A stretch of DNA of 64,000 bases from Paracoccaceae bacterium (GTDB lineage Bacteria; Pseudomonadota; Alphaproteobacteria; Rhodobacterales; Rhodobacteraceae): NCBI GenBank assembly GCA_009773375.1, contig WRPH01000008.1, positions 115,108 through 179,107 of the forward strand, read 5' to 3'. Positions 13,379-55,597 of this stretch are shown here, in pieces (position 1 is the stretch's first letter; every line of letters starts with the position of its first letter). The notes under the pieces are model-generated. The model saw only the letters and a program-made list of their open reading frames with translations. It was not told the origin of the DNA and did no database searches. The translations under genes and the position numbers were made by a program.

Positions 13379-13593
13379 CCGTCACACCCGACGGGTCCGT
13401 GTTTCTTTGCAGGGCCGGTCTCCTGGCTCGCGGGTCGTAGCGACCTTCCGCCTTCCCAGCCTTGCGGCCAGTGGCATTTCGGAAGGCCGCTCACCGCATA
13501 CAGTCGCGGGGGCGGCTGAGGCTTGGGGTGCCGATTGGTCCACCCATTCCCCATTCTCGTTTCAGTCCGGGCGCTTTGCGCTTTTCGGACACC
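13379..13593 (-). ncRNA. Cobalamin riboswitch (RS1) upstream of cbtBA
   Basis: Minus strand: CCGGACTGAAACGAGAATGGGGAA...GCCGCCCCCGCGACTG...TGCCACTGGCC...GGGAAGGCGG; terminal hairpin CCCGTC-GGGTGT-GACGGG before the start codon. Confidence 0.9.
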
Positions 13594-13677
13594 TTGCCCC
13601 TTCATTTGCGCCCGCAGCCCGCATTGGGTCAAGCGCAAAAGCGACCCCTGAGGGCCGCTTTCACCAAGCCGGGCCGA

Positions 13678-14358: not shown

Positions 14359-14572
14359 GCCGTCACACCCGACGGCGTTCAGGTTGCTTTGCACGGCCGG
14401 TTTCCTGACTCGCGGGTCGGTGCAGCCCTTCGCCTTCCCGGCGCAAGGCCAGTGGCGGATGAAGGGTGCTCGCCGCTTACAGTCGCGGGGGCGGTTGAGG
14501 CAGGGGCGCCGCTTGGGTCCGCCCTTCCCCATTCCCGATTAAGTCCGGGCGCTTTGCGCTGATCGGACACCG
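14359..14572 (-). ncRNA. Cobalamin riboswitch (RS2) upstream of the CbiM-like permease
   Basis: Minus strand: GTCCGGACTTAATCGGGAATGGGGAAGGG...CGCCCCCGCGACTG...GCCACTGGCC...GGGAAGGCGAAGGGC; terminal hairpin GCCGTC-GGGTGT-GACGGC. Confidence 0.9.
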
Positions 14573-14644
14573 TGCGAGGCAAGTGTAAGCAGGGCGGCGA
14601 GCCACGCAAGACGGAATGCGGCGATGCCGGGCGGGATGCGACAT

Positions 14645-28002: not shown

Positions 28003-28204
28003 GCGGAAAACACCCCGTCCGCCCGTTCAGTTCATGCGCTGGCAGGTCTCCCGGCTTGCGGATCCGGGGTTTCCCCCACGGCGGCCTGCCTTCCCGGATT
28101 GCTCCAGTGGCATCAGGCAACCTCTCCGGTCACGGTCGCGGGGGCGGCAGCTTTCGGGGTTGCCCCCTTTCGCATTCCCTCTTCGCCTGTCATAGACAGG
28201 AACC
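28003..28204 (-). ncRNA. Cobalamin riboswitch (RS3) at the head of the DUF1636b-cobW-cobN operon
   Basis: Minus strand: GAAGAGGGAATGCGAAAGGGGG...GCCGCCCCCGCGACCG...TGCCACTGGAGC...GGGAAGGCAGG; downstream hairpin loop again contains GGGTGT. Confidence 0.88.
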
Positions 28205-28260
28205 AGCGCGGCTTCACCTCTTGGCAGAACCACGCGCCTTGTCAAGCAACGGATGGCCCC

Positions 28261-28938: not shown

Positions 28939-29012
28939 AGGGGGCCAGCCCCCTCACCACATTGGCCAAGGCCAATGTGGCTTACCCCCGGGATATTTGA
29001 GCCAAGATGAAA
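28939..29012 (+). repeat. Palindrome plus GCCAAGATGAA intergenic element, copy A
   Basis: AGGGGGC-CA-GCCCCCT, CCACATTGGCC-AA-GGCCAATGTGG, then cccccgggatatttgagccaagatgaa. Confidence 0.85.
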
Positions 29013-29090: not shown

Positions 29091-29131
29091 GCGCAACACC
29101 TCCCCCGAGCAATCGGCCCGAGGTGTTGCGC
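29091..29131. repeat. GCGCAACACCTC / GAGGTGTTGCGC hairpin
   Basis: 12-bp perfect inverted repeat with 17-nt loop, in the cobO-cobQ gap. Confidence 0.75.
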
Positions 29132-29141
29132 CGTCCTTTGG

Positions 29142-29172
29142 CTTTCATCTTGGCTTCAAATATCCCCGCCGG
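29142..29172 (-). repeat. GCCAAGATGAA element tail, copy B (inverted relative to A)
   Basis: Reverse complement ggcggggatatttgaagccaagatgaaag. Confidence 0.85.
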
Positions 29173-29208
29173 AGGCTCCCGCCCCGGAGACAAGCTCTGC
29201 GTTTGGGG

Positions 29209-36159: not shown

Positions 36160-36911
36160 TCCAATTGCGCCCCCGTCTGGCCGAGGTGCAGTTGGCAGTC
36201 ATGCTGCTGACGCGCCTGCCTGCGGGACGGATGGCTGTCGCGCCTTCGATTGGTGCGGCGGCGTGGGCCTTTCCGCTGGTCGGCGGGGTGGTCGGCGGGG
36301 TTTCGGCGGCGGTTCTTCTCGCGGCCATGGCGGTTGGCATTGCGCCGGGGATGGCTGCGGGCATCGCCCTCGCTGCCGGGATTCTGGCTACCGGTGGCTT
36401 GCACGAAGACGGGCTGGCGGATGTGGCGGATGGTTTCGGCGGCGGCCGTGACCGGGCGCGCAAGCTGGAGATCATGCGCGACAGCCGGATCGGCAGCTAT
36501 GGCGGGCTGGCGCTTATCCTGTCGCTGGGGCTGCGCTGGCAGGCTATTGCCCTGCTGACCGTTGAAAGCCCGAAGCTGGGGGCTTTTGCCCTGATTGCGC
36601 TGGCGGTTTCCAGCCGTGCGGGCCTGCCGTTGGCGCTGCTATGGATGCCTGCCGCGCGGACAGATGGGATGGGGAAATCAGCTTCCGGGACAACGCGGGC
36701 GCGGGCGCTGATTTCGGTTGCCATCGCCGCGCTGGCCTTGGCAGTTCTGGTTGGCCCTGCCGAAGCCCTTACGGTTATGGTGGTGCAAGCGGTCGTGCAA
36801 CTTGCCTTCGCCCGCCTTGCCCTGCGCCAGATTGGCGGGCAAAGCGGCGATGTTTTAGGGGCGATGCAGCAGTTGGCCGAGATCACCGGCTGGCTGATGC
36901 TGACCCGCTGA
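36156..36911 (+). CDS. cobS: Adenosylcobinamide-GDP ribazoletransferase
   Basis: VQLAVMLLTRLPAG; GLHEDGLADVADGFGGGRDRARKLEIMRDSRIGSYG; this is the CobV/CobS transferase. Confidence 0.95.
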   Translation: MIQLRPRLAEVQLAVMLLTRLPAGRMAVAPSIGAAAWAFPLVGGVVGGVSAAVLLAAMAVGIAPGMAAGIALAAGILATGGLHEDGLADVADGFGGGRDRARKLEIMRDSRIGSYGGLALILSLGLRWQAIALLTVESPKLGAFALIALAVSSRAGLPLALLWMPAARTDGMGKSASGTTRARALISVAIAALALAVLVGPAEALTVMVVQAVVQLAFARLALRQIGGQSGDVLGAMQQLAEITGWLMLTR

Positions 36912-36915
36912 AGAC

Positions 36916-36988
36916 GAGGGGGCCAGCCCCCTCGCCGGTTTGGCACGCCAAACCGGCCCTCCCCCGGAGTATTTTTGCCAAGATGAAT
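36916..36988 (+). repeat. Palindrome plus GCCAAGATGAA intergenic element, copy C
   Basis: GAGGGGGC-CA-GCCCCCTC, GCCGGTTTGGC-AC-GCCAAACCGGC, then cctcccccggagtatttttgccaagatgaa. Confidence 0.88.
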
Positions 36989-36998
36989 GCAAATTTTA

Positions 36999-38333
36999 TT
37001 AAAGTTGTGGGCGCTTTTGCAAAAGTGGCATGACATCGGCCATTTCCGGGCCTGCATCAAGGCCGGTGACGGCGCGACGCAGCGGGCGGAACAGGGTTTT
37101 ACCCTTGCGCCCGGTTGCCTCTTTTACTGCATTGGTCCATTCGCCCCAGGTTGCCGTTGTCCACGGGCCTTCGGGCAGCAGGGCGAAGGCTTGCGCCACG
37201 AATTCACGGTCTTCTTCGTCAACCAGCGGCGTTGCGCCATCGCGGAACAGCGTCCACCAGCCTTCGAGATCGGCCAGAACGGTGATGTTGCCCTTGGCAA
37301 CGTTCCAGAACGCTTCGGCCTTGTCGGCGGGCACGCCCAGCTTGGCGATACGGTCGGCGACGTTTGCCAGCGGCAGACTTTGAACATGCGCGCGGGTCAG
37401 CGGGAACAGGTCTTCGGCGTCGAACTTGGTCGGGGCAGCGCCAAAGCTGCCAATGTCAAAGCCGTCGATCAGGTCTTGCATCGACGAGGCGAGCTCCACC
37501 GGCTTGGAAGAGCCAAGCCGCGCCATCAGCGACAGCAGCGCCATCGGCTCCACGCCCTGCGCGCGCAGATCGCGCAGCGACAGCGTGCCAAGACGCTTGG
37601 ACAGTTCTTCGCCCTTCGCGCCGGTCAGCAGCGAATGGTGGGCGAAATTCGGTGGGGTGCCGCCCATCGCCTGCATGATCTGGATTTGCGTCGCGGTATT
37701 GGTGACGTGATCAGCACCGCGCACGATAAAGCTGACGCCCATGTCGATATCATCGACCGACGAGGCGAAGGTGTACAGGATCTGCCCATCGGCGCGGATC
37801 AGCACCGGATCCGACACCGAAGCCGCGTCGATCGAGATCGGCCCCAAGATGCCATCGGGCCACTCGATGCGCTGCTGATCCAGCAGGAAACGCCAATAAC
37901 CAGCACGGCCTTCGGCGCGGGCGGCGGCTTTTTCATCTTCGGTCATCCGCAGCGAGGCGCGGTCATAGACCGGCGGCTTGTGCATGTTCAGCTGCTTCTT
38001 GCGCTTCAGGTCCAGTTCGACCGGCGATTCAAAGCATTCGTAGAACCGGCCCGCTGCGCGCAGCTCATCCGCCGCCTGGTAGTAGCGGTCAAAGCGTAGC
38101 GACTGCTTTTCAACGCGATCCCAGTGCAGGCCCAACCATTCCAGATCTTCCATCAGGCCATCGGCGTATTCCTGCTTTGACCGTTCCTGATCGGTGTCAT
38201 CCAGACGCAGGATGAACGTACCCCCGGCCTTGCGGGTGATCAGATAGTTCATCAGCGCGGTGCGCAGATTGCCGACGTGGATATATCCGGTCGGCGAGGG
38301 GGCAAAGCGGGTAATGGTGGGCTTGACGGTCAT
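36999..38333 (-). CDS. gltX: Glutamyl-tRNA synthetase
   Basis: TRFAPSPTGYIHVGNLRTALMNYL (HIGH-like); GEELSKRLG (KMSKS-like). Confidence 0.96.
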   Translation of the reverse strand: MTVKPTITRFAPSPTGYIHVGNLRTALMNYLITRKAGGTFILRLDDTDQERSKQEYADGLMEDLEWLGLHWDRVEKQSLRFDRYYQAADELRAAGRFYECFESPVELDLKRKKQLNMHKPPVYDRASLRMTEDEKAAARAEGRAGYWRFLLDQQRIEWPDGILGPISIDAASVSDPVLIRADGQILYTFASSVDDIDMGVSFIVRGADHVTNTATQIQIMQAMGGTPPNFAHHSLLTGAKGEELSKRLGTLSLRDLRAQGVEPMALLSLMARLGSSKPVELASSMQDLIDGFDIGSFGAAPTKFDAEDLFPLTRAHVQSLPLANVADRIAKLGVPADKAEAFWNVAKGNITVLADLEGWWTLFRDGATPLVDEEDREFVAQAFALLPEGPWTTATWGEWTNAVKEATGRKGKTLFRPLRRAVTGLDAGPEMADVMPLLQKRPQL

Positions 38334-44513: not shown

Positions 44514-44546
44514 CATTCATCTTGGCAAAAATATCCCCCCCGGAGG
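44514..44546 (-). repeat. GCCAAGATGAA element tail, copy D
   Basis: Reverse complement ccctccgggggggatatttttgccaagatgaatgg. Confidence 0.85.
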
Positions 44547-55568: not shown

Positions 55569-55597
55569 ACCCCCAGAGTATTTTCGCCAAGATGAAG
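55569..55597 (+). repeat. GCCAAGATGAA element tail, copy E
   Basis: tacccccagagtattttcgccaagatgaag. Confidence 0.85.

Follow-up and report, generated by a model that had tools for sequence, protein, structure and literature searches.

A dispersed family of modular intergenic elements in Rhodobacterales with a proposed pseudoknot fold

Two intergenic elements in the 64-kb window (the whole stretch of DNA analysed here), copy C between cobS (+, stop at 36911) and gltX (-, ending at 36999) and copy A between cobO and cobQ, share one architecture built around an 11-bp palindrome of differing sequence, which raises the question of what kind of element they represent, how it folds and what it does. 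Both copies lie where the original prediction had placed them and contain the modules it had described (Table 1). Within copy C, CT together with the second C-run mirrors the GAGGGGG of hairpin 1 (GAGGGGG faces CTCCCCC). A third copy, in the same gap as copy A, faces it and has a spacer one base longer, while a separate palindrome, GCGCAACACCTC..GAGGTGTTGCGC, occupies positions 29093-29131 between the two. Across the window, TATTTNNGNCAAGATGAA has 5 matches with at most 3 mismatches, against 0.55 expected. The cobalamin gene region also holds three cobalamin riboswitches (Rfam), at 14378-14589, 13396-13611 and 28024-28222, all on the minus strand.

Table 1 Coordinates of copies A and C, their modules and the further copies in the window.
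Feature	Position	Strand	Basis
Copy C, whole element	36916..36987	+ as first read; predicted folding strand -	sequence; parse as class 1, alpha tail
Copy C hairpin 1, the predicted pseudoknot stem S2: GAGGGGGC / CA / GCCCCCTC	36916..36933	+	sequence
Copy C hairpin 2, 11-bp palindrome with 2-nt loop: GCCGGTTTGGC-AC-GCCAAACCGGC	36934..36957	+	sequence
Copy C second C-run, whose G-run on the - strand is the proposed third strand (L1)	36961..36965	+	
Copy C variable G, partner of C in the hairpin 1 loop; constant GA; leading G of GTATTT	36966..36969	+	loop/partner covariation
Copy C core and alpha tail, TATTT-TT-GCCAAGATGAA	36970..36987	+	
Copy A, whole element	28939..29011	+; predicted folding strand -	sequence; parse as class 1, alpha tail
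Copy A hairpin 1: AGGGGGC / CA / GCCCCCT	28939..28954	+	sequence, parse
Copy A hairpin 2: CCACATTGGCC / AA / GGCCAATGTGG	28957..28980	+	sequence, parse
Copy A second C-run (28985-28989) and GGG	28985..28992	+	sequence, parse
Copy A core and alpha tail, TATTT-GA-GCCAAGATGAA	28994..29011	+	pattern match
Third copy, cobO-cobQ gap: class 2 core GCCTCCGGCGGGGATATTT, alpha tail	29144..29181	-	pattern match, parse
Further alpha copy: class 2, CCC-TCC-GGG core	44516..44533	-	pattern match, parse
Further alpha copy; upstream module parsed as neither class 1 nor class 2	55579..55596	+	pattern match

The overall plan of the element is a free-form hairpin module, followed by G(G/A)(A/G)TATTT-NN and then by one of several conserved tails, with three main types, alpha (GCCAAGATGAA), beta (GCAGAGAGGATGACC) and gamma (GGACAGATGAA), occurring side by side. 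At least 212 elements with related tails, copies A and C included, are present in this genome (G000; Cypionkella/Pseudorhodobacter group, Rhodobacteraceae; assembly 3.71 Mb, 92.7% complete), and TATTTNNGNCAAGATGAA / TATTT-NN-GCCAAGATGAA has 111 genome matches with at most one mismatch compared with 0 for the reversed control. Class 1, comprising 102 elements in the genome parse, consists, in the direction first read, of hairpin 1 (G4-7/C4-7), an optional hairpin 2, a second C-run and 1–4 variable bases, after which GG-ATATTT (76) or GA-GTATTT (26), two free bases and the tail complete the element; the G-run/C-run stem of hairpin 1 in copy C is of the type common to all 102. In class 2 the same core is preceded by X-TCC-X'-GGGA, where X is GCC, CGC, GCGC or CCC, and the elements often form palindromic pairs that face outwards, their tails about 65 bp apart. 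Four genome copies (C8 19733, C28 94469, C13 139965 and C27 100334) carry a third kind of module, ATCTTCCACTGGAAGAT-GTCCGGGCGCATCTCACCC, upstream of this core. On the 3' side of copy C, positions 36990-37010 hold an AT-rich module, AATTTTAGNNAA(A/G)TTTTAG, that follows the tail in 35 of the 212 genome copies, with all tail types represented. That copies A and C are members of a dispersed, modular intergenic element family of Rhodobacterales is well supported.

The stems vary freely in sequence while their pairing is kept. As predicted from the two copies, the 11-bp stem of hairpin 2 changes from copy to copy and stays paired: among 68 copies with unrelated stem sequences, 16 of 564 pairs are mispaired. 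A second set of pairings links the loop of hairpin 1 to the variable bases after the second C-run, which are complementary to it (loop/partner examples are TTCAC/GTG, TTTAC/GTA, TTTGC/GCA, TTTCC/GGA, TC/GA, TA/A and CA/G). Complementarity over the whole prefix reaches 90%, against 55% with shuffled partners (largest shuffle 65%), and among the 39 distinct combinations it is 77% against 48 ± 4.6%; many partners are only 1–2 bases long and raise the baseline, so the evidence lies in the excess and not in the raw figure. Loop length also tracks partner length (r = 0.68). Run lengths are matched as well, the second C-run following the G-run of hairpin 1 in G000 with r = 0.69 (0 of 20,000 shuffles as high), and over 152 elements its length rises with that of the G-run (r = 0.66, slope 0.90) but does not follow total stem length (r = 0.04). 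Relatives show the same match (r = 0.59), as do metagenome copies (r = 0.52, obtained with a search pattern that required at least 5 C's in the run). Selection on structure, as originally proposed, is borne out by unrelated stems that stay paired and by covarying loop and run lengths. The accompanying idea that the flanking modules keep their sequence holds only in part: the C-run and the 1–4 nt after it covary with hairpin 1, and the conserved tail exists as several types that swap between strains. Comparative statistics show a family of elements with paired stems, a partner for the loop, matched run lengths and a strand asymmetry, and on these sequence comparisons we consider the paired anatomy highly probable. 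The pairing of the hairpin 1 loop with its partner is new here and would form a part of the fold that the original prediction missed.

The asymmetry concerns which strand folds. On the tail-forward strand the hairpin 2 mismatches of the 68 copies are 11 A-C and 1 G-T, and those of metagenome elements are 10 A-C and 1 G-T, giving a pooled 21:2 that is not fully independent, as some metagenome copies may duplicate or be orthologous to G000 loci. Because A-C on the tail-forward strand corresponds to G-T or G-U on the other, we take the complement to be the strand that folds. Mismatches pooled over all hairpins have no A-C/G-T asymmetry, a count that is uninformative because spurious hairpins entered it. 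Read on the complement, class 1 has the order 5'-tail'-NN-AAATAYYC-S1a-G4..7-[hairpin 2]-G4..7-loop-C4..7-3'. As in an H-type pseudoknot, the loop pairs with flanking bases, and the two change in compensation at orthologous loci, loop and partner being altered jointly between G000 and the genus-level relative G123 at L117 (the copy C locus), L131 and L141. At the copy C locus, G123 has loop TA with partner A where copy C has loop CA with partner G. From this covariation we propose an H-type pseudoknot for the complement strand of class 1. Its stem S2 would be the hairpin of G-run and C-run, and S1, of 1–4 bp, would join the loop of that hairpin to the bases before the first G-run. A pseudoknot on the forward strand with a C-run as third strand is disfavoured by the A-C/G-T asymmetry. 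The DNA cruciform of the original prediction covers neither the strand asymmetry nor the pseudoknot pairing. A pseudoknot of the class 1 kind would not fit into class 2.

In the proposed fold the first G-run (L1) would lie along the deep groove of S2 as a third strand of G.G-C triples, antiparallel to the purine strand of the stem, and the remainder of the loop would be A-rich. This is the polarity of purine-motif G.G-C triplexes. Of 83 five-base loops, 76 have A as their last base when read on the folding strand, which is what an A-rich third loop would predict. Internal A's in the G-run fall at mirror positions at three interrupted loci, two with GGAGGG/CCTCCC and one with GGGGAGGG/CCCCTCCC, and run length is matched; an A at the foot of the G-run usually has no matching T. 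We regard the assignment of the G-run as a third strand as evenly balanced. Alternatively, the two G-runs of the folding strand might compete for the single C-run and form a bistable switch and not a triplex, for which run-length matching is equally expected and to which the cobS-gltX locus of G127, read as one nested hairpin CTATGGGGG..CCCCCATAG, lends an example. Such a switch is improbable, however, since the loop, and not the flank into which a competing helix would continue, is the pairing partner of the bases next to the second run, and the internal interruptions sit at mirror and not at antiparallel positions. In its H-type topology, and in having a loop that occupies the deep groove of the second stem, the proposed fold would resemble the triplex pseudoknots of telomerase RNA, SAM-II and preQ1 types. 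Those use U.A-U third strands, whereas here G.G-C is proposed, and in a dispersed intergenic repeat.

The elements are almost all intergenic. With ORF-based gene calls made in this analysis, 202 elements could be placed, 77 of them in convergent gaps, 60 in codirectional gaps with the tail along the genes, 57 in codirectional gaps with the tail against them, and 8 in divergent gaps. Convergent gaps are enriched for elements, and divergent gaps, which make up 475 of the 1919 intergenic regions of at least 40 bp, are depleted (8/202). The tail is rejected as a promoter: by eye there is no fitting -35/-10 spacing, and divergent regions hold few elements. Along contigs the elements are spaced at random (CV 1.07), against a reading as regularly spaced chromosome-organising sites.

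Genus-level relatives carry the same scaffold with other tails, such as GCCAATGTGAA in G123, and the cobS-gltX site has an element in the same position and orientation in most relatives read. By eye, 26 syntenic loci are readable between G123 and G000, with the element in the same orientation at 18, in the opposite orientation only at 1 and absent at 7; none of the seven absences is a clean empty site, the two genomes being too diverged for this to weigh on mobility. Orthologous sites mostly keep the place and orientation of the element, whereas its stems, loops and tails differ. A class 1 and a class 2 element have replaced each other at L138, beside a conserved right flank, and at L121 G123 has an element where the orthologous G000 site (C69:14847-14872) is an ordinary hairpin-plus-TTTT terminator. 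In close strains of Leisingera the structure is constant and the tail switches between CAAAGATGAAG and ACCAGAAAGAAG. Copies occur on replicons of Ruegeria pomeroyi DSS-3, Ruegeria TM1040 and Paracoccus denitrificans, plasmids being among the carriers, and copy number differs between species. A scan of 301 alphaproteobacterial genomes finds the class 2 core almost only in Rhodobacteraceae. Among viral contigs, 45 stretches (L277-L321) match the alpha-type core and tail by pattern.

Known systems offer partial likenesses. REP/BIME repeats with their RAYT transposases and the rhizobial RIME/ABC mosaics are short, dispersed, intergenic, palindromic and modular repeats. The present elements resemble REP/BIME in all these respects, in lying away from divergent promoters and in often forming inverted pairs. 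They differ in that no RAYT is found here, stem sequence is not conserved between copies, loop and run lengths covary, and the conserved tails are exchangeable. A REP/RAYT system or retroelement is rejected for G000, whose 92.7% complete assembly contains neither the Y1-type RAYT transposase PF01797, which exceeds the cut-off in 1 of 15 relatives, nor PF00078 (RVT_1); no GTAG-type tetranucleotide at the foot of the palindrome was noticed in the element listings. Rfam has no family above its gathering threshold at the element, the only window matches at threshold being the cobalamin riboswitches and the best weak match at copy C being BjrC68 (18.6 vs 39 bits). A search of the open literature for the literal motif and for named repeats found no description either, in agreement with the earlier remark that no named element matches; subscription papers and preprints lie outside that scope, and a prior description there is possible. 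The STAXI motif is likewise a repeated pseudoknot for which single-stranded DNA or RNA has been discussed (Weinberg 2010, PMC2864571), but it is enterobacterial, tandem and near DNA-handling genes, whereas here single or paired copies stand at unrelated gene ends. HRC-8-4, a structured, terminator-like motif confined to Rhodobacterales (PMC8632094), lies mainly between ccoNOQP and ccoGHIS, has a U-run and conserved loop bases, and is not a dispersed repeat.

As to function, we consider an orientation-independent boundary element, kept in place at transcription-unit ends, the most likely reading and prefer it tentatively, with a mobile mosaic repeat as its close and main rival. In a boundary element the G-rich strand, as transient single-stranded DNA or as an RNA copy, would fold and limit passage or support protein binding, and the tail would serve one or more trans-acting readers as a docking sequence, a role suggested by tail types that differ in step across many loci between species. 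Individually intact, sequence-diverse copies at orthologous sites point to selection in place, and orientation neutrality points to action at the DNA level or to insensitivity to the direction of transcription. Orientation neutrality, module swapping and variable copy number fit a mobile repeat too. Such a REP/BIME/MITE-like repeat, possible rather than probable, would have its strand-specific fold recognised by a putative mobilising enzyme, with intergenic placement reflecting tolerance only and the exchange of hairpin and tail modules reflecting recombination among copies. The random orientation relative to codirectional genes, the outward palindromic pairs with their roughly 65 bp between tails, the Leisingera tail swaps within a constant structure, the class exchange at L138, and copies that vary in number between species and occur on plasmids all favour it. 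Against this, G000 has no Y1 transposase or RVT_1, neither an autonomous partner nor a target duplication has been seen, place and orientation are mostly kept at orthologous sites, and the copies are diverse yet almost perfectly paired, neither decayed nor near-identical.

That the element terminates transcription of the gene on its structure side or stabilises the 3' end of the transcript, with TATTTTTG as U-tract, is quite improbable, although strong hairpins near stop codons, the enrichment of convergent gaps and the ordinary terminator that G000 has at L121 in the position of the G123 element speak for it. The elements do resemble intrinsic terminators in having GC-rich hairpins near gene ends and a short T-rich stretch, but they are randomly oriented, the T-stretch is interrupted and set off from the stem, 10–14 conserved bases follow it, and the mismatch bias favours the other strand. 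In place of a continuous U-tract, class 1 has the second C-run, 1–4 variable bases and a constant dinucleotide between the stem and TATTTNN, and the most conserved part of the element is the bases after the T-stretch. Half of the copies in codirectional gaps face the wrong way (60:57), which makes a general role as sense-strand terminator or 3' UTR unlikely; with stem mismatches that point to the opposite strand, the original suggestion of a 3'-end RNA is not supported as a general role. Ordinary terminators are not rarer beside structure-first copies, and their deficit at tail-first gene ends, present without masking, is gone after element masking with strict definitions. The RUAUUU form does resemble the AU-rich RNase E sites described in the R. 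sphaeroides TIER-seq study (PMC6238624), but an RNase E site is rejected, as half of the copies are antisense.

The most far-reaching reading compatible with these data is a naturally occurring triple-helix pseudoknot of the purine-motif (G.G-C) type that Rhodobacterales genomes carry in many copies, with exchangeable tails that would mark the boundaries of transcription units and evolve together with trans-acting readers, a combination that we hold to be rather unlikely as a whole. Short intergenic repeats are easily dismissed as terminators, and here the strand asymmetry and the orientation data argue against doing so. A family of about 200 copies in one genome, found also in Ruegeria pomeroyi DSS-3, Paracoccus denitrificans and Leisingera, turned up neither in Rfam nor in the open literature searched. 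Should the G-run indeed be a third strand, the family would provide a purine-motif triplex fold shaped by natural selection, with many natural variants already to hand, and the parallel change of tail type between related species would offer a direct route to the protein or RNA that may read it.
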